Assembly: GCF_003148465.1 (NCBI RefSeq)
Contig: NZ_QGGI01000007.1
Location: 62,001 to 126,000, forward strand
Length of the DNA: 64,000 nt
From: Oceanotoga teriensis
GTDB lineage: Bacteria; Thermotogota; Thermotogae; Petrotogales; Petrotogaceae
Direction of reading: 5' to 3'
In this document: positions 41,793-52,878 of the stretch, one piece after another
Position numbering within the stretch: the stretch's first letter is position 1
Layout of the letters: each line of letters begins with the position of its first letter
Notes under the pieces: model-generated
Database searches by the model: none
Told to the model about the DNA's origin: nothing
What the model saw: the letters and a program-made list of their open reading frames with translations, nothing else
Made by a program: the position numbers and the translations under genes

Positions 41793-43844
41793 TTAATTTA
41801 ACGTCTCAGTTGTAAAATCAGCATGTAAATCAGGTTCCATACCATATGGATAAGGATCTACTCCCCAACCTTTATCTCTATATCTAAAATCTGCCGAAAT
41901 AGAATATGATTCACTATCATCATCTATAGAAATAGCGTAAGCAATATTTATTCCCCAGTTATAAGACTTTCCATTTTCAAGTTTATCAGATTTATAAAGA
42001 GAATTATCTCCACTTACAAATATTCCATAAGGATTAATTACATGCCAATTTAAACCATCTTTTTCAACATTTCCAGTAAATTCTACAGATACATCTTCTT
42101 TTCCCAATGTAGCAAATGTATAACCAAATGGTTCTGTTGAAGTATCGGAAACAGGAACAAATAATCCATTATTCGATTGATTCCAATCATATACAAAAAG
42201 GTTATAAGCATATACAACATCAGAATCGGAAACCAATTCTTTATCTGGTCCCCATTTAAATACAGGGTTCACAGAAACATCCATAGAATTATGTTCAGGA
42301 GATTTTAATTCTATATTAAATTGATCCATAGGAACTACAGATCCTAATTTTGTCATATTTCCTTCATATCCATTATATTTAGGTTTTATACCATACCATA
42401 CTTCTTCTCCTGGAGTTAACTGTGATGATTGATCTACAAAATTAGCCAAAGGTTTACTTTGTAATATTCTATAAGTTGTATAAGAAGATCTAACAGTACC
42501 TATTTTTACATAATTTATATCATCAAAAGATCTATAAACATTGTATGCCTCAGGTTCTTCATAATCATCTGGACCTTCTATAAGTGAATTAGCTTTTAAT
42601 ATTTCATAGCTATCAAAATCTATCCAGAATAATTCAATATATAAATTAGAATCTGTTTGAATTCCATTCATATCTACTTCTAATTCAGGAATATTTAATG
42701 AAATAGAATTATCAAAAGTTCTATTTTTTCCTGTCAAATCTACAGGATCATTATAATAAGCTAAACCTCTTCTTCTCATCCAAGAAATCATATTTTTTTG
42801 ATTTAAAATTGCAACATCTGTTGCTTTCATCACATTATAAGGTGTTGCTGGTGCTGTATCTAATACTCTTTGAACATTTACATAATCTATATTCAAAACC
42901 AAATTATCATTATGATCATAAACCGCAGTAAATAAAGCATTTTCACCATTTGATAGACCTGTTAAACTTATATTTGAAGTGGTTTTAGTTGATTCACTCG
43001 AATAAGTAGCAGTTCTATCAGATATCATAGCTCCTGAACCAGGAATTCTATTCCAATTTGTGAGATATGTTATATAATGAAATTCTTCTTTTTGTAAAAT
43101 TTCTAAAGAAGCTTTAAAATTTTGTGTAGCTGGTGTAGTATCAATATTAAATGGAGTATCATCAGAATTATAATAATTAATAGTTACTTCATTTAATTCT
43201 ATATCTGATGAATCTTCCCATAAAGAAGCTTTTCTTGAATAAATTTCTAAAGGTTCTTTATTTAAAAAATATGTTGGTTTTAAATTTTTTACAACTGTTT
43301 TAGCATTACCCTCTTTAGTTATAACAAGTTCTACTTTTTCAGGTATATTTGGTATATTTATATCAGCATAACCCTCTTCATCTGCTATAAATTCACCGAG
43401 TTTTGAATCATTAGACGAATTAAAAACCTCTATTTTTCCCTCTGAAACTCTTGGACCAGAATTATATTTAACTAATAATACTTCTAAGCCTTTAGTCCAA
43501 AATTCATAAACATCACTTGAAACTTTTTGAGAACCATCTGAAACTTCAATTTTCCAATAATATCTCTTATTAGGTTCTGTTTGAATATCATAATAGTTAT
43601 TAGTTAATTTTTCAGCTACTTTATTTAAATTAGTTTCTGATTCTCCAACATAAACAGCATAAGTTAGAGGTACATTAGATTCTGATTTTTTCCAAGTCAA
43701 TCTAACAGTACCTTCTAAATGTTTTGTTCCATTTTCTGGAGTAAACTTATTCTCTATTACTGGTGGCTTCTGAGTTTGAGTACAAGATACCAGTAATATT
43801 CCAGCCATGATAGTTAACATGATTAAAAAAAGTACTTTTTTCAC
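41793..43844 (-). CDS. Large lipoprotein with Ig/FN3-like N-terminal domain
   Basis: 683 aa. Signal VLFLIMLTIMAGILLVSC with lipobox Cys21. Residues ~30-120 look like a fibronectin-III/Ig-like fold (ENGTKHLEGTVRLTWKKSESNVPLTYAVYVGESETNLNKVAEKL, KRYYWKIEVSDGSQKV), and ~510-600 repeat that style (SPEHNSMDVSVNPVFKWGPDKEL). The centre is unrecognised, beta-rich and acidic. No catalytic motif seen. Start is GTG after GGGGGG, the same unusual start context as the protease gene, with which it forms an operon. May be a structural partner of the protease; its size and position recall PrcA of the dentilisin complex, but I see no sequence proof. Confidence 0.8.
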   Translation of the reverse strand: MKKVLFLIMLTIMAGILLVSCTQTQKPPVIENKFTPENGTKHLEGTVRLTWKKSESNVPLTYAVYVGESETNLNKVAEKLTNNYYDIQTEPNKRYYWKIEVSDGSQKVSSDVYEFWTKGLEVLLVKYNSGPRVSEGKIEVFNSSNDSKLGEFIADEEGYADINIPNIPEKVELVITKEGNAKTVVKNLKPTYFLNKEPLEIYSRKASLWEDSSDIELNEVTINYYNSDDTPFNIDTTPATQNFKASLEILQKEEFHYITYLTNWNRIPGSGAMISDRTATYSSESTKTTSNISLTGLSNGENALFTAVYDHNDNLVLNIDYVNVQRVLDTAPATPYNVMKATDVAILNQKNMISWMRRRGLAYYNDPVDLTGKNRTFDNSISLNIPELEVDMNGIQTDSNLYIELFWIDFDSYEILKANSLIEGPDDYEEPEAYNVYRSFDDINYVKIGTVRSSYTTYRILQSKPLANFVDQSSQLTPGEEVWYGIKPKYNGYEGNMTKLGSVVPMDQFNIELKSPEHNSMDVSVNPVFKWGPDKELVSDSDVVYAYNLFVYDWNQSNNGLFVPVSDTSTEPFGYTFATLGKEDVSVEFTGNVEKDGLNWHVINPYGIFVSGDNSLYKSDKLENGKSYNWGINIAYAISIDDDSESYSISADFRYRDKGWGVDPYPYGMEPDLHADFTTETLN

Positions 43845-44623
43845 TTAAATCCCCCCTTAATGAGTAATTTTTATGACTTTCTCTTTAATTTTTGAATTTT
43901 CATTTAATTCAAAACATATAAAATTCAAAAAAAATTAATAATCTTAACTTTATATTATTATACAACTTTAAAATAAAAAAATCAATTTTTAATAAAAAAT
44001 GAATAAAATTACTTATTGTAAATTATTTTTGAATTTTTTTTCATATGTAAATGATGTGTTTCTTTTCATACTTTATTGTAAAATATAATAGCAATAAAAT
44101 TTTTATAAATTATTAATCAAATGACATATAAAAAAACTTATCAACTTATCGACATTGGTTAAATCTTTGTTAGTTTATAAAATACTTACATTTTTTTTAT
44201 TTTTATTCAAGATTTAAGTTATAAACTATCAACGTTGATAAGTTGATTTAGTTGATAACTTTCAAAAATATCTCAAATACATTATTTAATAAGTTATGAA
44301 CTTTTAAATTAAAAAAATATCAACAAAAAATGTCTATAACTATGTTATCGACATGATTTTCGATAACTCAGTCGATAATTATGTCGATACAAAAAACTAT
44401 CAACATGATAATAATATACAAAAGTGTACTTATAAGTTATCAACAAAAATGAGTTGATAACAATAATAATAAGTTGATAAGTTATAGACTTAATTTAATA
44501 AGAATTCAAGCTAATTTGAATCACTTTTCAACTATCAACATCATATCACTATCACTACTACCATATATATATAAGAGACTATAAAAATTATAAACAATAA
44601 AAAAATTCGAAAGGGGTAATAAA
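43845..44623. repeat. Gene-free region with a two-strand array of TATCRAC motifs
   Basis: About 780 bases without an ORF. Between 44138 and 44539 I count 14 copies of TATC[A/G]AC on either strand. Starts of the 8-base units: 44138, 44146, 44226, 44234(-), 44251(-), 44317, 44345, 44371(-), 44383(-), 44397, 44437, 44453(-), 44473(-), 44532. Ten have the A form and four the G form. Two are tandem (44138/44146), and one pair forms the perfect palindrome TATCAACGTTGATA (44227-44240). The first ~290 bases are plain A/T-rich. The units resemble relaxed DnaA boxes (TTATCAACA at 44437, TTATCGACA at 44146 and 44345 each differ by one base from TTATCCACA). An operator array for the downstream operon is the alternative. 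Confidence 0.8.
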
Positions 44624-45217
44624 ATGAAAAGTGGAAGACTTGTATTAATAGTAGGACCTATGTACTCTGGAAAAACATCTGAATTACTATCATATGTTGA
44701 AATATATCATTTAGGAAAAAAGAATTACAAAGCTTTCAAACCATCAATAGATAACAGATATGATGAAACATTCATAGTATCTCATAACAATACAAGAGTA
44801 AAAGCATATCCTATAAAAGAACCAAAAGAAATATTTAAAATACTTGAAGGAAATGAAAAAGCAGTATTTATAGATGAAATACAATTCATATCAGAAGAAT
44901 TAAAAGACATAATACTAAATCTAATTGATAAAGGAATAGATGTATTCTGCTCAGGATTAGACTTAAGTTTTAAAAACAATATATTTCCAACAACAAGTAT
45001 ATTAATGGGATATGCAGATGAAGTAATAAAGAAAAAAGCAGTATGTCACGAATGTGGAGAATACACAGGAACTATATCTTATAAAACCATTGAAAATGGT
45101 GGAGAAATAGATATAGGTGGATTTGATAAATATATAGCTGTGTGTAGAGACTGCTATAAAAAATTGAATGAAAAACAAAAAAAAGAACAAAAGATAAACA
45201 TGAACAAATTATTTTAA
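44624..45217 (+). CDS. tdk: Thymidine kinase (type II)
   Basis: 197 aa. P-loop LIVGPMYSGKTSELLS, Walker-B-like KAVFIDEIQFI, the lasso-loop region CSGLDLSFKNNIFPTTSILMGYADEV, and a four-Cys zinc site (CHECGEY and CRDCYKK). Phosphorylates thymidine for dTMP salvage. RBS AAAGGGG. First ORF after the TATCRAC array and only 22 bases from the next gene, so it appears to lead the DUF4132 operon. That link between a salvage enzyme and a MoxR-VWA system may be only positional. Confidence 0.95.
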   Translation: MKSGRLVLIVGPMYSGKTSELLSYVEIYHLGKKNYKAFKPSIDNRYDETFIVSHNNTRVKAYPIKEPKEIFKILEGNEKAVFIDEIQFISEELKDIILNLIDKGIDVFCSGLDLSFKNNIFPTTSILMGYADEVIKKKAVCHECGEYTGTISYKTIENGGEIDIGGFDKYIAVCRDCYKKLNEKQKKEQKINMNKLF

Positions 45218-45239: not shown

Positions 45240-48200
45240 TTGAATTATAAAGAAAAATATTTTGAACCAATAAAAAATAAACTCAACAAAGAAGAAATAA
45301 ATATATTAGAATCATACTACAAAAATTCAGAAAATTTCATAGAAACTAAAAATAAGATAAAAACAAATACAAATTTTTCATACTTCAATTTTTTCTTATA
45401 CACTCCAAAAGAAGAATTAAAAGAAAACTATTACAAAGTATTTAAAATACTTTCCTTAATTACAAATGATGTAGACTTAGCTTTAGAAATATTGAAAGAA
45501 AGCAATGAAAATCTAGATATTGAATATATAGAAAAAACAGATGAAACATTCTTCACATATTTAAATATAATAATGAACACAATAAAATATACAAAACAAA
45601 TACTTATAAACAAAGAAATTCCAAAAAATTTAAATGATGAAAAAGAATATAAAAAACATATAAAAAATATGGATAAAATATATAATACAACAAATTCAAA
45701 CGATTTAAAAATACAAATATTATACATAAAATACATACATGATCAAAATGAAAAATACTTAGATGAAATAAAAAAAATTATAAATTTATCAAAAATAAAC
45801 AAACAAAAAGATTTCATCATGTTGATAACTTACACATTATACAAAATAAACAAAATCCATGGAAAAGAAATAGAAGAAAAAATACAACAAATATTTATAA
45901 ATCACTCAACAACAATATACTCAATATATTCAAATATCTCATATTCTTCAATAGAAAGAATGAATTTTTATATGAACGAATTCAACGACTTATCAACAAA
46001 AATGAAATTAAATGAAAAACTATTAAAAACATTCTTAAAAAATGTAATAATATTCAGTTATGGTGAAAAAAAGATATTAAAAGAACTTATGAATCATCAG
46101 ATAAATCAAGAATATATAGAACAACTATTAGAAATAATAAAAACTTTTGACAAAAAAGAAGATATGATAAAAACACTAATAATACATGCATACCTAATAA
46201 AAAAAGCAAAAGATCTAAATATAAAAATAGAAAAACACATAAAATATTTTGAAGACAAATTTATAAACAATATATTTAAAGCATTAAAAGAAAAAAAAGA
46301 ATATCAAGAAATAAAACAATTATTAAAAACAAAAAATATATTAGAACATGATTATCAAAAAATATCATATTTCATACATGATTTATCATACTCATTATAT
46401 TTTGAAATATCAGCTTACTTATTATTAGAAGAATCAAATATATGTGGAAATTATATAAAACTAAATTATCACTTAAGCGAATACATATTAAACATCATAG
46501 GACTAAAATATCAATCAAAAAATGTAATAGATCAAATAATATCAATAGGTGAAAATCAAGAATATATAATAAACTTAATAGAAAGTGATTGGATACATGT
46601 TCAAAATTTAAGTGATGATATAAAAAAAGATTATTTAGAATACATAGAAAAAAATGAACTATTAGAAAAAAAATTAAACAAAAATACAAATTATATAATA
46701 TACAAAGATATATTCAATTACTACATAAAAAAACCAATAATAAACAAAAAAATAATAGTTGAATCATTAAATTCAAAATCCAAAAAAATCAGAGATTTAA
46801 TAATAGAAAACTTAAAAGGAAAAAATGAATATGATGAAGAACTACAAAAACTTTCAAAACAAAAATTACCCAAAGCAAACAAAGAAGAATTAGAATATCT
46901 TATAACATACAATAAAATAAACAAATTCGATACAAAAAACAATTCAATAGTCAATCTGATAAAAGAATTATACAATCCAAAAATAATAGATAAAAAATTA
47001 GAAAAATTAAATATAATAGATATACCAAAAATAAAATATGAACAAAAAAATGAATATATAGATGAAATAGTTATAAAATATTACATATCCTCATTCCTTT
47101 TAAGTCCAAAAGTGGAACTACCTTTACTTGCAAATGAAATAAAAGAAAAATTATCTAAAAATGATTTAAACACATTAGGAAGATATGTATACAATATATG
47201 GCAAAACAATGGAGCAAAAGCAAAAGAAAAAATGGCTATGGTATTTGCTGTTTATAACTGTGATGATGAATTCATAATAGAATTCAAAAAACAAATAGAC
47301 GATTGGGCTTTAAATATGAGAGGTGCAATAGCAGCGGAAGGAATAAAAGCATTATCATTTCATGGAAGTGATTATGCACTGATGCAACTCGATACAATAA
47401 GTAGAAAATACAAACACAAAAAAGTAAAAGAAACTGCAAAAGAATACTTTTATATAGCAGCTAAAAATATGGGATTAACCTCTGAAGAGCTCTCAGATAA
47501 AGTAATACCCAATCTTGGATTCAATACAAAAGGTGAAATAGAACTAAATTATGGAAATAGAAAATTCATAGGAAAATTAAATAAAGATCTAACAATACAA
47601 ATATATGATCAAGAAGGAAAAAAATTAAAAACTCTTCCAAAACCAAATAAATCTGATGATGAACAAATAGCAAAAACAACAAAAAAAGAATTTACAAACC
47701 TAAAAAAACAATTAAAAACGGTCATAGAATCTCAAAAATTAAGATTAGAAAGAGCAATATTCATAACAAGAAAATGGAATTCAAAAACATTCAAAGAAGT
47801 ATTCAAAGACAATCCAATAATGAATATATTTGCAACAGGACTTATATGGGGCATAATAGACCAAAATCAAAAAATACAAAAAACATTCAGATATATGGAA
47901 GATGGAACATTCGAAAACCAAGAATATGATCAAATAAAACTCAAATCAGAAGATCAAATAGTACTAATACACCCATTTGATATAACAGAAAAACAAATAA
48001 ATGAATGGAAAGAAAATTTACAAGACAATGAAATAGAGCAACCTGTAAATCAATTAAACATAAAACTAATAAAATTAACCCAAGAAGAACAAGAAAAACA
48101 CTTTTTAAAAAGATATAAAGGTAAAAAAATGTATGTTGCAACCCTAATAAATAGATTAGAAAAATTGGGATGGAGTAAAAATTCAATAACCGATGGTGGT

Positions 48201-48452
48201 GGATATAGCGGATTTCATCTACAATTTGATGAACTTAAATATGGAGCACAAATACATGGTTCTGATTTATACATAGGTGGAATTGATGAAACAACAGAAA
48301 TAGAAGAACTTGCATTCTATAAAAAAGAAGAAATAGAAAGAGGATCCTATTTATATGATGACCTAAACGAAAATAATACATATAAAATAAAAAATGTAGA
48401 CAAAAAATTTCTAAATGCTGTATTAAACCAATTAGATGAAGTAATAAAATAA
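45240..48452 (+). CDS. DUF4132-containing giant protein of a MoxR-VWA system
   Basis: 1070 aa. Residues ~1-780 are Lys/Asn/Ile-rich helical repeats of HEAT-like appearance (e.g. GSDYALMQLDTISRKYKHKKVKETAKEYF near 705-735). Residues ~800-1070 match DUF4132: LRLERAIFITRKWNSKTFKEVFKDNPIMNIFATGLIWG (K845 onward), LIHPFDI, and GWSKNSITDGGGYSGFHLQFDEL. Start is TTG with GGGAG 9 bases upstream; no ATG nearby. The family occurs with MoxR ATPase, DUF5682, VWA and SWIM proteins, as here. Biochemical function unknown. A scaffold or substrate-recognition role within the complex is inference. A stable hairpin separates it from the MoxR gene. Confidence 0.85.
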   Translation: MNYKEKYFEPIKNKLNKEEINILESYYKNSENFIETKNKIKTNTNFSYFNFFLYTPKEELKENYYKVFKILSLITNDVDLALEILKESNENLDIEYIEKTDETFFTYLNIIMNTIKYTKQILINKEIPKNLNDEKEYKKHIKNMDKIYNTTNSNDLKIQILYIKYIHDQNEKYLDEIKKIINLSKINKQKDFIMLITYTLYKINKIHGKEIEEKIQQIFINHSTTIYSIYSNISYSSIERMNFYMNEFNDLSTKMKLNEKLLKTFLKNVIIFSYGEKKILKELMNHQINQEYIEQLLEIIKTFDKKEDMIKTLIIHAYLIKKAKDLNIKIEKHIKYFEDKFINNIFKALKEKKEYQEIKQLLKTKNILEHDYQKISYFIHDLSYSLYFEISAYLLLEESNICGNYIKLNYHLSEYILNIIGLKYQSKNVIDQIISIGENQEYIINLIESDWIHVQNLSDDIKKDYLEYIEKNELLEKKLNKNTNYIIYKDIFNYYIKKPIINKKIIVESLNSKSKKIRDLIIENLKGKNEYDEELQKLSKQKLPKANKEELEYLITYNKINKFDTKNNSIVNLIKELYNPKIIDKKLEKLNIIDIPKIKYEQKNEYIDEIVIKYYISSFLLSPKVELPLLANEIKEKLSKNDLNTLGRYVYNIWQNNGAKAKEKMAMVFAVYNCDDEFIIEFKKQIDDWALNMRGAIAAEGIKALSFHGSDYALMQLDTISRKYKHKKVKETAKEYFYIAAKNMGLTSEELSDKVIPNLGFNTKGEIELNYGNRKFIGKLNKDLTIQIYDQEGKKLKTLPKPNKSDDEQIAKTTKKEFTNLKKQLKTVIESQKLRLERAIFITRKWNSKTFKEVFKDNPIMNIFATGLIWGIIDQNQKIQKTFRYMEDGTFENQEYDQIKLKSEDQIVLIHPFDITEKQINEWKENLQDNEIEQPVNQLNIKLIKLTQEEQEKHFLKRYKGKKMYVATLINRLEKLGWSKNSITDGGGYSGFHLQFDELKYGAQIHGSDLYIGGIDETTEIEELAFYKKEEIERGSYLYDDLNENNTYKIKNVDKKFLNAVLNQLDEVIK

Positions 48453-48457
48453 AATAA

Positions 48458-48490
48458 TTAGTCAAGTGGTAAAAATTACTACTTGACTAA
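48458..48490 (+). promoter_or_regulatory. Stem-loop between DUF4132 and moxR genes
   Basis: TTAGTCAAGT-G-GTAA / TTAC-T-ACTTGACTAA forms a ~15-bp stem with loop AAA. There is no T-run after it, so it is more likely a processing or stability element than a full terminator. Confidence 0.65.
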
Positions 48491-48510
48491 TATTATATAG
48501 AGGTGCATAA

Positions 48511-49578
48511 ATGCAAATAATAAAACAACCAATGGAAATACAATACAAAGAAGAAATACAAAAACTTATAAAAAATGAAAAAGAAGACAAACCAGAAGGG
48601 TGGCAAATGTCTCCATTATCTGTAAAAAAATTCATACTTGGAGATAAAAAATTACAAATAAGCAAAAAAATATATGGAAATGATGACATAGTAGAAAGAT
48701 CAATAGTTACACTTGCAACAGACAGAGGACTACTGTTAACAGGTGTCCCAGGAACAGCTAAAACAATGCTCAGCGAACTTTTAACTGCTGCTATATGTAA
48801 TGATTCATTGAACACAATACAAGGCAATATAGGTACAAATGAAGCCGATTTAAAATACTCTTGGAATTACTCATTATTAATTTCAAATGGTCCAAATAAA
48901 AAATCAATGATAAAATCACCTGTATTAAAAGCCATGGAAAAAGGTTCAATAGTAAGATTTGAAGAAATAACAAGAAGTCCTCAAGAAGTACAAGACATGC
49001 TAATATCAATAATGAGTGATAAATTGATACAAATACCAGAACTAAAAGAAAACAACACAATATTTGCAAAAAAAGGATTCAATATAATAGCTACAGCCAA
49101 CACATTAGATAAAGGTGTAAATGAAATGAGTAGTGCATTAAAGAGAAGATTTAATATAGAACATATAAAACCCTTAAACAACATAAAATTAGAACAAGAA
49201 ATAGTAAAAAATCAAATAATAAAAATGGATGAAAAAAACAAAATAGACGAAAACATAATAGAAATATTGACAACAATATACAATGACTTAAGAACTGGAA
49301 TAACGATAGAAGGAGATTTAATAGAAAAACCTGAAAAAAACTTATCAACTGCAGAACTTGTAAATGTATATCATGAATGTATGATACATGCAAAATTCTT
49401 TTCAAATTCAGAAATAGATGCAAATATAGTTTTTGATAAATTAATAAACAGTTTTGATGAAAACAATGAAAATGATATAAGAGCTTTAAATTACTACTTT
49501 GAAAAAACAATAAAACTAAGATCATCAACAAATGAAATATACAATAAATTATATAAAAATATGGTAAAAATAAAATGA
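48511..49578 (+). CDS. MoxR family AAA+ ATPase
   Basis: 355 aa. Walker A GVPGTAKT at 78-85, Walker B SIVRFEEIT (Glu151/Glu152), sensor-1 IIATANTLDKGVNEMSSALKRRFN with arginine finger region. Typical MoxR/RavA-like cores act as chaperone-type ATPases with VWA proteins, remodelling or activating a target complex. RBS AGAGGTG. Overlaps the DUF5682 gene by 4 bases. Its VWA partner is two genes downstream. Confidence 0.93.
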   Translation: MQIIKQPMEIQYKEEIQKLIKNEKEDKPEGWQMSPLSVKKFILGDKKLQISKKIYGNDDIVERSIVTLATDRGLLLTGVPGTAKTMLSELLTAAICNDSLNTIQGNIGTNEADLKYSWNYSLLISNGPNKKSMIKSPVLKAMEKGSIVRFEEITRSPQEVQDMLISIMSDKLIQIPELKENNTIFAKKGFNIIATANTLDKGVNEMSSALKRRFNIEHIKPLNNIKLEQEIVKNQIIKMDEKNKIDENIIEILTTIYNDLRTGITIEGDLIEKPEKNLSTAELVNVYHECMIHAKFFSNSEIDANIVFDKLINSFDENNENDIRALNYYFEKTIKLRSSTNEIYNKLYKNMVKIK

Positions 49579-51806
49579 ACTTAAAAAAATATATAAATCA
49601 AAACCATTTCTTTTTTCCAATAAGACATCATAGTATAATAAGTTCAAATTTTTTAAAAAAAGCATTAAAAGAATATAAACCAAAAACAATATTAATAGAG
49701 GGACCATCAGATGCAAATAAACACATACAAAACATTGCAAAATCAAAACCACCAATATCCATATATGGAATAAATCAAAACATAGAAAATATAGGAATAA
49801 ACTACCCATTTTTCAATACATCGCCAGAATATATAGCAATAAAATACGCATATGAAAAAAAAATAGAAACAAAATTCATAGACATACCGATATATGATTA
49901 TCAGATAATAAAAGAAAAACAAAACTTTGAATACTCACAATACATAAAAGAAATAATAAAAAAATTAAAATTAAAATCATTTGATGAATTTTATGAAAAA
50001 TACTTTGAAATAAACTTACAAAGCAAAACAATAGAAAACTATATAAAACAAATGCTTGCGTACTGTGAAATAACAAGAAAACTAACACCAACACAAACAT
50101 TCAATCAATTAAGAGAAAAATATATGGCAGAAAATATAATAAAATATAGTACAGAAAAAACATTAATAATAACTGGAGGATTTCACACAGTAATACTACC
50201 AGAACTAATAAAAACTCAAATAAAAATCTCTAAAAAAGAAATAAATAAAATAACAGATAAAAATAAAAATTACTTAATACCATATAACACAAAAAATATC
50301 TCATCATTAAATGGATATCCTGCCGGAATAAATTATCCTGAATACTCAAAAATAATGCTAAAAAACAGTATGAATACAACGCAAACATTCACAGAAATAC
50401 TAATAAAATATGCTCAAAAAAATAAAATAAAAACACCTATGAGCAAAATAATAGATGGAATAAATATGGCAAATGGACTTGCTAAAATAAGAAAAAAAAT
50501 TAAACCAGGAGTATATGAACTAATAGACAGTTCAGTAACAACATACTCAGACAGTATATATTATGATGACTCAGAACAAATAAAACAAAATTTCAAAAAA
50601 TTTCTAATAGGAGAAAATTATGGAAAAACATACGATGAAACCACATTACCACCGATAGTTCAAGACTTCATACTAACAACAAAAAAATATAAAATAAAAG
50701 AAAATTCAATAATTACATTAAACATACTAAATTCAGAAAAAGCTTTACAAAAATCGATATACCTATATAAATTAGACTATTTAAACATAGAATATTCAAC
50801 TCAAACAAAAGGAATAAATTTATACAAAATAGACCTTAATCAAAACATAAATCAAACATTCAAAATAACAAACAAAGAAAAAATAATACATCAACTAATA
50901 GATAATGCGTACTTAGGAAATACAATAGACAATTGTATAAACACAAAAATAAAAAATCAATTAAAAAATTCAACAAATCTATATCAATCAATCAATATAT
51001 TAAAAATAATGACAATATTAAAAAATAAAACAAACGAAATATATAAAAAAATAAATGAATACATAATAAATGAACACAATATATCAAATATGATAGATTC
51101 ATTCTATGAACTAATAAACATAATAAATTACTCAAAAACATTCAATCAAAATATAGAAGAAGATATAAAAATAATAATAAATAATCTATACATAAAAATA
51201 CTTACACAAATAAAGACAATAGACAAAATAAACATAAAGTTAGAAAACAAAATATCAAACTTCATAAATGAACTAAACACTTTTATAAATAACAACAACA
51301 TAATAAAATTGAACAAAAAAATATTTATAAACACATTAAAAATAATAACAAAAAAAACATGGACATCTTCATTAAAAGGAATATCAGTATCAATACAATA
51401 CACTCAAAATATAATAGAAGAAAAACAACTATACAAAATAATAAACAACAACTTCAAGACAACTGAATTCGGAATAATACACACATCAAACTTTCTAAAA
51501 TATTTAATAATAAACAACCATCAAATATTATTCAAAGATGACAAATTCATAAAAATAATCAATCAATTTATAGAAACACTGACAGAAGAACAATTTTTTC
51601 AAATACTACCAGAATTAAGAAAAATATTTATAAACTTAAAACCAATAGAAACCGTAAAACTATCTCAAAAAATAAAAAATTTAAACAATACAACAGAAAA
51701 TATACTAATACAAATAAACACAACACAACAACAAATAATAAACAACATAAAAATACAAAAAAAAGCTATAGAAACACTTGAAAAAAGAGGAATAAAATAT
51801 GGATAA
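49575..51806 (+). CDS. DUF5682 family protein
   Basis: 743 aa. Signature FFFPIRHHSIISS at residues ~12-24, KTILIEGPSDANKHI (~37-51), and GGFHTVILPELI (~204-215), all standard for DUF5682, whose N-terminal part resembles the ChaN/EreA/TIKI-like metal-hydrolase fold with paired His. Residues ~370-743 are a long helical, Asn/Ile/Lys-rich region without motifs. Overlaps moxR by 4 bases and the VWA gene by 8, so strictly coupled. Enzymatic activity unproven; the invariant HH and EGP motifs make a hydrolase plausible. Confidence 0.85.
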   Translation: MNLKKYINQNHFFFPIRHHSIISSNFLKKALKEYKPKTILIEGPSDANKHIQNIAKSKPPISIYGINQNIENIGINYPFFNTSPEYIAIKYAYEKKIETKFIDIPIYDYQIIKEKQNFEYSQYIKEIIKKLKLKSFDEFYEKYFEINLQSKTIENYIKQMLAYCEITRKLTPTQTFNQLREKYMAENIIKYSTEKTLIITGGFHTVILPELIKTQIKISKKEINKITDKNKNYLIPYNTKNISSLNGYPAGINYPEYSKIMLKNSMNTTQTFTEILIKYAQKNKIKTPMSKIIDGINMANGLAKIRKKIKPGVYELIDSSVTTYSDSIYYDDSEQIKQNFKKFLIGENYGKTYDETTLPPIVQDFILTTKKYKIKENSIITLNILNSEKALQKSIYLYKLDYLNIEYSTQTKGINLYKIDLNQNINQTFKITNKEKIIHQLIDNAYLGNTIDNCINTKIKNQLKNSTNLYQSINILKIMTILKNKTNEIYKKINEYIINEHNISNMIDSFYELINIINYSKTFNQNIEEDIKIIINNLYIKILTQIKTIDKINIKLENKISNFINELNTFINNNNIIKLNKKIFINTLKIITKKTWTSSLKGISVSIQYTQNIIEEKQLYKIINNNFKTTEFGIIHTSNFLKYLIINNHQILFKDDKFIKIINQFIETLTEEQFFQILPELRKIFINLKPIETVKLSQKIKNLNNTTENILIQINTTQQQIINNIKIQKKAIETLEKRGIKYG

Positions 51807-52878
51807 TAAAACAAAATGGAGACTAATACTTGGAAAATACTCAAAAGAAAATTTAAATCAAAACATAACAAAAGAACAACAAAACATAGAAACACTATTA
51901 GATACAGTATATGATAATGAATATACAAAAAATAAACAAATGTATGGAACAAAATCAAATGGAATAACCATAATAGAAACTATAAACAAAGTAAAAAATA
52001 TATTAAATCAAGAAACAATAAACAAAATAGCTTTAGATGCATTTGAAGAATATGGAATATATGAACTAATAACAGATAAAAACTACATAAAAAACATAAA
52101 ACCAGACATAAACCTATTAAAAAATTTAATAATGTACAAAAACTATACAAAAACAGAAGAACAAGAAAAAATAAAATACATGATAAAAAAAATAGCAAAT
52201 GAAATAAAACTAAAAATGTTAAAAAATATAGACCTATCATCAGTTGGGACTACAAACAAAACAATATCAACAAAATACCAAAAATCAAAAAATATTGATA
52301 TAAACAAAACCATAAAAACAAATATAAAAAATTACAACAAAGAACAAAAAAAATTATATATAGAAAACATATACTTCTATCCAAATAAAGCAATAAAAAA
52401 AACAAAAAATATAATACTAATAGTAGATTGTTCTGGTAGTATGATAAAAAGTTTAATATACTCAGCAATAATATCCTCAATATTCTATAATATAAATCAT
52501 ATAAACATAAAAATAATATTATTTGATACAAGAATAGTAGATTTATCTCAAATAAAACAAGATCCAATAGAAATACTATTAAATGTAACACTTGGCGGAG
52601 GTACAGATATATCAAAAGCATTAAAATACTCACAAAAACTAATAAAAAACAAACAATATACAGAAATAATAATGATAACAGACTTATTTTCAGAAGAAAA
52701 AACAATGTTAAAAGAATTTGAAAACATAAAATCAATGGTAAATAAAATACTAATATTAACGGGAATAGAAGATGATGGAAAAACCTATTATAATAACAAT
52801 ATTGCAAAAAAATTAGAAAAATTAAATATATCAGTCAAATCATATACAGTAAAACAACTCGTGAACTACATAAAGTAA
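51799..52878 (+). CDS. VWA-domain protein of the MoxR system
   Basis: 359 aa. N-terminal half helical; VWA domain at ~200-355 with a complete MIDAS: D210-C-S212-G-S214, T269 (LGGGTD) and D295 (IMITDLF). So it can bind a divalent metal and a partner acidic residue. MoxR ATPases characteristically work with such VWA proteins. Start overlaps DUF5682 by 8 bases; the gap to the SWIM gene is 21 bases with RBS AGGAG. No signal peptide; cytoplasmic. Confidence 0.92.
   Translation: MDNKTKWRLILGKYSKENLNQNITKEQQNIETLLDTVYDNEYTKNKQMYGTKSNGITIIETINKVKNILNQETINKIALDAFEEYGIYELITDKNYIKNIKPDINLLKNLIMYKNYTKTEEQEKIKYMIKKIANEIKLKMLKNIDLSSVGTTNKTISTKYQKSKNIDINKTIKTNIKNYNKEQKKLYIENIYFYPNKAIKKTKNIILIVDCSGSMIKSLIYSAIISSIFYNINHINIKIILFDTRIVDLSQIKQDPIEILLNVTLGGGTDISKALKYSQKLIKNKQYTEIIMITDLFSEEKTMLKEFENIKSMVNKILILTGIEDDGKTYYNNNIAKKLEKLNISVKSYTVKQLVNYIK

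Follow-up and report, generated by a model that had tools for sequence, protein, structure and literature searches.

Related replication origins

According to previous studies, the tandem DnaA boxes in oriC of B. subtilis are followed by a short spacer and then by TAG-rich DnaA-trios (PMC8287927, PMC10316083), and a basal unwinding system (BUS) was defined by a box that departs from TTATCCACA at two positions at most and lies no more than 16 bp away from the trios, which comprise at least three consecutive NAN triplets (PMC8287927). In T. maritima, three TAG repeats are needed in the unwinding element of oriC (PMC10316083). As for Petrotogaceae, no published oriC, either experimental or predicted, was found in the literature searched.

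The stretch of DNA analysed here (64,000 nucleotides, hereafter the window) corresponds to positions 62001-126000 of contig C7 in the genome of a Petrotogaceae bacterium (G000; 2.79 Mb, 45 contigs, assembly 99.9% complete). Window positions 44138 to about 44610 are predicted, with high probability, to be the chromosomal oriC of this bacterium, and the array that they contain is assigned to the bacterial DnaA-type oriC, with a family-specific box, according to its architecture, its conservation and its position in a relative.

Like oriC of T. maritima (tma-oriC, PMC10316083), which comes from the same phylum, the locus has several boxes in both directions, a non-canonical box and a TAG-rich element flanked by AT-rich DNA and a box (TAG-TAG-TAG, termed 'eTrio', in T. 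maritima), but it carries TATCRAC in place of ACCTACCAC, its TAG series is interrupted by TGA, and its array is longer, with 14 units against 10 boxes. No cluster of ACCTACCAC was found in the window, in contig C1 or in the dnaA region, and only two scattered matches (at most one mismatch) are present in the window, neither of them in the array. With the BUS of B. subtilis (boxes 6/7 and DnaA-trios; PMC8287927, PMC10316083), the locus shares the order of tandem boxes, short spacer, TAG-rich trios and AT-rich DNA, whereas its box is one or two bases away from TTATCCACA, its spacer is not GC-rich, dnaA is not adjacent, and its trios depart from the strict rule. As in datA and the titration clusters of E. 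coli, DnaA-box-like sites are clustered away from dnaA; unlike datA, however, a module of the window type marks the skew switch in a relative (G003). To our knowledge, DnaA titration sites have no unwinding module, nor do they mark a skew switch.

The TATCRAC array and its surroundings

The gene-free gap in the window measures 779 bp (43845-44623), in agreement with the approximately 780 bp given in a sequence-only reading of this DNA. It separates a leftward putative lipoprotein gene (41793-43844, - strand), which has no Pfam match and is a left neighbour not conserved at the predicted origin, from the rightward thymidine kinase gene tdk (44624-45217, + strand; Pfam TK, 2.4e-39), which is the right neighbour of the array both here and in G004. 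Directly after tdk, a set of DUF4132, MoxR-type AAA, DUF5682 and CoxE-type VWA genes occupies 45240-52875, and a DHH/CBS/nucleotidyltransferase-like gene is found in place of the DUF4132 set in G004.

Fourteen exact copies of TATCRAC are present within 402 bp (about 44138-44540), eight on the + strand (first base of the 7-mer at 44139, 44147, 44227, 44318, 44346, 44398, 44438 and 44533) and six on the - strand (44234, 44251, 44371, 44383, 44453 and 44473). According to the window sequence and the unit counts in relatives, three variant units can be added, namely TATGAAC at 44295-44301 (+) and TATAGAC at 44332-44338 (-) and 44483-44489 (+), since TATGAAC, TATAAAC and TATAGAC are the remaining unit spellings in related origins. 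The genome's own TATCRAC rate (0.326/kb over 1.62 Mb) predicts only 0.13 copies for a stretch of 402 bp (Poisson P about 5e-24), and 5000 dinucleotide shuffles of the array stretch gave a mean of 0.17 and a maximum of 3. No rival TATCRAC cluster was found in the 1.62 Mb scanned (58% of the genome), where every other 450-bp stretch held at most three copies. The dense two-strand array described in the sequence-only reading, and its excess over random sequence, are thus borne out. If TATCRAC is read as the box, the array represents a genome-unique cluster of boxes, as in a DnaA-type oriC.

The palindromic pairs noted in that reading were recovered as well, with three of the eight inverted pairs of the form TATCRAC-N0-30-GTYGATA in the whole genome lying inside the array. 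A search with a same-strand triple-unit pattern gave no match, because the units of the array are spaced too irregularly. Where the sequence-only reading gave several units one base away from the DnaA box, only three were found to differ from TTATCCACA by at most one base.

The gene dnaA of the window genome is located on contig C2, not on the contig of the array, and its region (C2:180-220 kb) contains no box cluster. The domain IV loop of the encoded DnaA is KRNHSTISHSIKKI; NHSTI is common to G000, G001 and G003, while the comparison chains carry DHTTV in B. subtilis and Aquifex and SHPVV in T. maritima. The box spellings (TTATCCACA, TTATCAACA-like and ACCTACCAC) vary in parallel with the loop, and judging from these sequences, loop and box probably change together. 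TATCRAC would represent a third box spelling in the phylum-level comparison, and the recognition loop of DnaA differs correspondingly.

The end module

At its 3' end, directly after the last copy, the array passes into a conserved element (44530-44562), which was overlooked in the sequence-only reading. The array end is laid out as CTATCAACA, spacer, CTATCACTACTACC and AT-rich DNA, or, in letters, CTATCAACA TCATATCA CTATCACTACTA CC followed by a sequence of 88% AT. The tandem unwinding-proximal boxes TTTTCAAC and TATCAACA (44525-44540, + strand) are kept in eight genomes of six genera. According to the window sequence and the module comparison, a spacer at 44541-44548 (+ strand) leads from the last box to a DnaA-trio-like element at 44549-44560 on the - strand, where CTA TCA CTA CTA of the + strand reads 5'-TAG-TAG-TGA-TAG-3'. 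The neighbouring sequence at 44563-44610, with 88% AT, is a putative unwinding element by its base composition, and such a neighbour is also expected for a DnaA-type oriC. Of the 1657 box-like sites (TAT[CA][AG]AC) in 1.62 Mb, only two have three CTA within four triplets at the same distance, one of them being the window module.

In terms of the BUS (PMC8287927), CTATCAACA agrees with the box definition, having two mismatches to TTATCCACA and an 8-bp gap to the first CTA. The trios of the window depart from the strict rule because TGA breaks the TAG series, and among the genomes compared only G006 agrees with it. The end module probably works like a BUS by analogy, but it was not filed as a strict member because the window lacks at least three consecutive NAN triplets. 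TAG repeats as in the T. maritima-type oriC are present in the form of three TAG in four triplets, not three in tandem.

If the locus is oriC, DnaA with the NHSTI loop would read TATCRAC as its box and ATP-DnaA would assemble on the array. The protein bound to the last tandem boxes (TTTTCAAC-CTATCAACA) might deliver DnaA to the - strand at its TAG triplets, and the AT-rich DNA on the tdk side would melt and serve for helicase loading. The flanking genes would play no part in this mechanism.

Recurrence in related genomes

Using window positions 44200-44600 as a blastn query, the end module was matched in seven further genomes (G004, G006, G008, G003, G001, G014 and G018) with E values of at most 3e-5, at query positions of about 324-393. 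Array and end module were found together in six genomes besides that of the window, which represent five additional genera of Petrotogaceae, plus G012. In the reverse direction, an independent query from G014 retrieved the window module as its best match in the window genome (E 1.3e-5).

G004, which belongs to another genus (tdk 74% identical), has both array and module in the corresponding position ahead of tdk, and its array is 71% identical to that of the window over 373 bp, so that the conservation at the same tdk locus for which the sequence-only reading had looked is indeed found. A pfkB sugar kinase gene adjoins the module and its array, composed of TATCRAC, TATGAAC and TATAAAC units, in G003, G006, G008, G014, G018 and G012, with homoserine dehydrogenase (hom) on the other flank, or one gene further off in G003. 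In G001, module and array have a hypothetical gene on one side and a pilC-like gene on the other. The locus provides a family-wide and testable origin candidate for Petrotogaceae.

GC skew and fork direction

The GC skew was measured at third codon positions (GC3), with gene strand and side of the array fitted separately and genes bootstrapped. In the complete genome of G003, it amounts to -0.134 left and +0.132 right of the module over 100 kb on each side (side-term CI 0.111-0.152), and the breakpoint, when fitted freely, is best placed at 590-592 kb, compared with 593.1 kb for the module. Around the chromosome, the samples are negative between about 1.56 Mb and the module, across position zero, and positive between the module and about 1.52 Mb, forming one negative and one positive half apart from one stray sample at 1.84 Mb. 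The gene dnaA begins at base 1 of the record (L153:1-1362), 593 kb from the module, and shows no skew switch. These data identify the module as the replication origin of G003, a two-replichore chromosome. The absence of dnaA and dnaN nearby, which the sequence-only reading had counted against oriC, thus loses its force, as the same module sits at the G003 skew switch at such a distance from dnaA. The record of G001, also a complete genome, starts its numbering close to dnaA (L092:451-1812), and its module is likewise about 590 kb away from that gene. Skew steps of the same sign as in G003 were obtained for G004 (0.051, CI 0.010-0.081), where the step is small, and for G001 (0.068, CI -0.003 to 0.140), where it is borderline. 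The origin seems to stay intact while its gene neighbours change across genera, far from dnaA, and numbering a genome from dnaA, as in the G003 record, would misplace it.

In the window genome, the 106 kb left of the array show a GC3 skew of -0.46 and the 42 kb right of it one of -0.49, with a side term of -0.013 (CI -0.061 to 0.049). A minus-to-plus switch, which is a diagnostic criterion of an origin and not part of its mechanism, is therefore absent at the array, as had been judged by eye, and this still stands as a true objection to oriC. Contig C7 has the strongest strand bias of the contigs sampled, with an A/C-rich + strand and a GC3 composite of about -0.5 to -0.6; the bias drops to about -0.3 at both contig ends and does not change sign across the array. 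Replication forks appear to move leftward along all of C7.

As a guess, the uniform skew of C7 might come from a rearrangement beside the origin, since the flank genes of the G004 origin are shuffled in the window genome. A single simple inversion of the right flank was considered and does not fit the comparison with G004, because genes from both sides of the G004 origin are interleaved within 40 kb right of the window array and the gene that follows tdk has not changed orientation. Synteny between the window genome and G003 is heavily scrambled. It is unlikely that, in the window genus, unidirectional (leftward) firing or a dominant second origin to the right imposes the same bias on both flanks; if so, an oriC that is ordinary in other respects would have lost or changed its replication polarity. 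The lack of a skew switch leaves the fork direction in the window genome open to a direct test.

A minus-to-plus skew change at about 225-250 kb of contig C1 (L079-L080) was also considered as a rival origin and rejected. It is likelier to reflect foreign composition or an inversion edge, because it has no box cluster and its right part is a cobalamin-type biosynthesis operon.

Function of the array

The array might be a DnaA-binding site that is not an active origin here, either a retired origin or a site that titrates DnaA as datA does, across which forks pass leftward from an origin elsewhere, though we regard this as quite improbable. Strong skew of one sign on both sides is what would be expected if a single fork direction crosses the array. 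However, a retired origin should decay, while the module is intact (one base different in 33 bp compared with G004) and the window array is the densest among the relatives compared; a titration site, in turn, needs neither trios nor an AT-rich element. Moreover, two different blastn queries revealed no second module copy in the 99.9%-complete assembly, and no rival box cluster appeared in the 58% scanned. Between the two kinds of DnaA cluster proposed in the sequence-only reading, oriC is supported, and a datA-like titration site keeps only this small probability.

It is very improbable that the array is a multi-copy operator for tdk and the DUF4132/MoxR-VWA genes. The array does lie between a leftward gene and the rightward tdk, whose start is about 60 bp away, but the same module and unit types are found beside unrelated genes in G003, G006, G008, G014, G012 and G001, and DUF4132 does not follow tdk in G004. 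No array adjoins tdk in the pfkB-type genomes or in G001; the array is tied to the module and not to tdk, because in these genomes it accompanies the module elsewhere and leaves tdk bare. The shifting gene context largely refutes the operator reading. As regards regulation, the earlier view that such an array is at least as likely as oriC is not supported, as the array keeps its form in genera with neighbours other than the tdk, DUF4132 and MoxR-VWA genes. A parS-like partition site is scarcely credible, and so is an iteron site belonging to a plasmid or an integrated element, since the repeated units on both strands are iteron-like but resemble DnaA boxes, and the module marks the chromosomal skew switch in G003.

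A chromosomal oriC therefore remains the preferred reading. It is held to be highly probable, and not firmer, because the module is intact and unique, yet the window genome has no skew switch; the latter, the departure from the strict BUS rule and the location of dnaA on another contig constitute the evidence against it.

Related loci in genus g6

An intergenic array of TATAAAC and TATCAAC units, ending in ATCACTATAGCACCTATACC and AT-rich DNA, is present in G017 (genus g6, a group of Marinitoga-like genomes; L088:1320-1750). By its sequence, it is a probable diverged form of the window-type origin, and it was left out of the claimed set because its end module is too diverged. In the same genus, tdk matches (L034, L035, L036, L037 and L039) carry in-frame stops in several genomes, which may represent a pseudogene, a frame error or read-through of the match ends.
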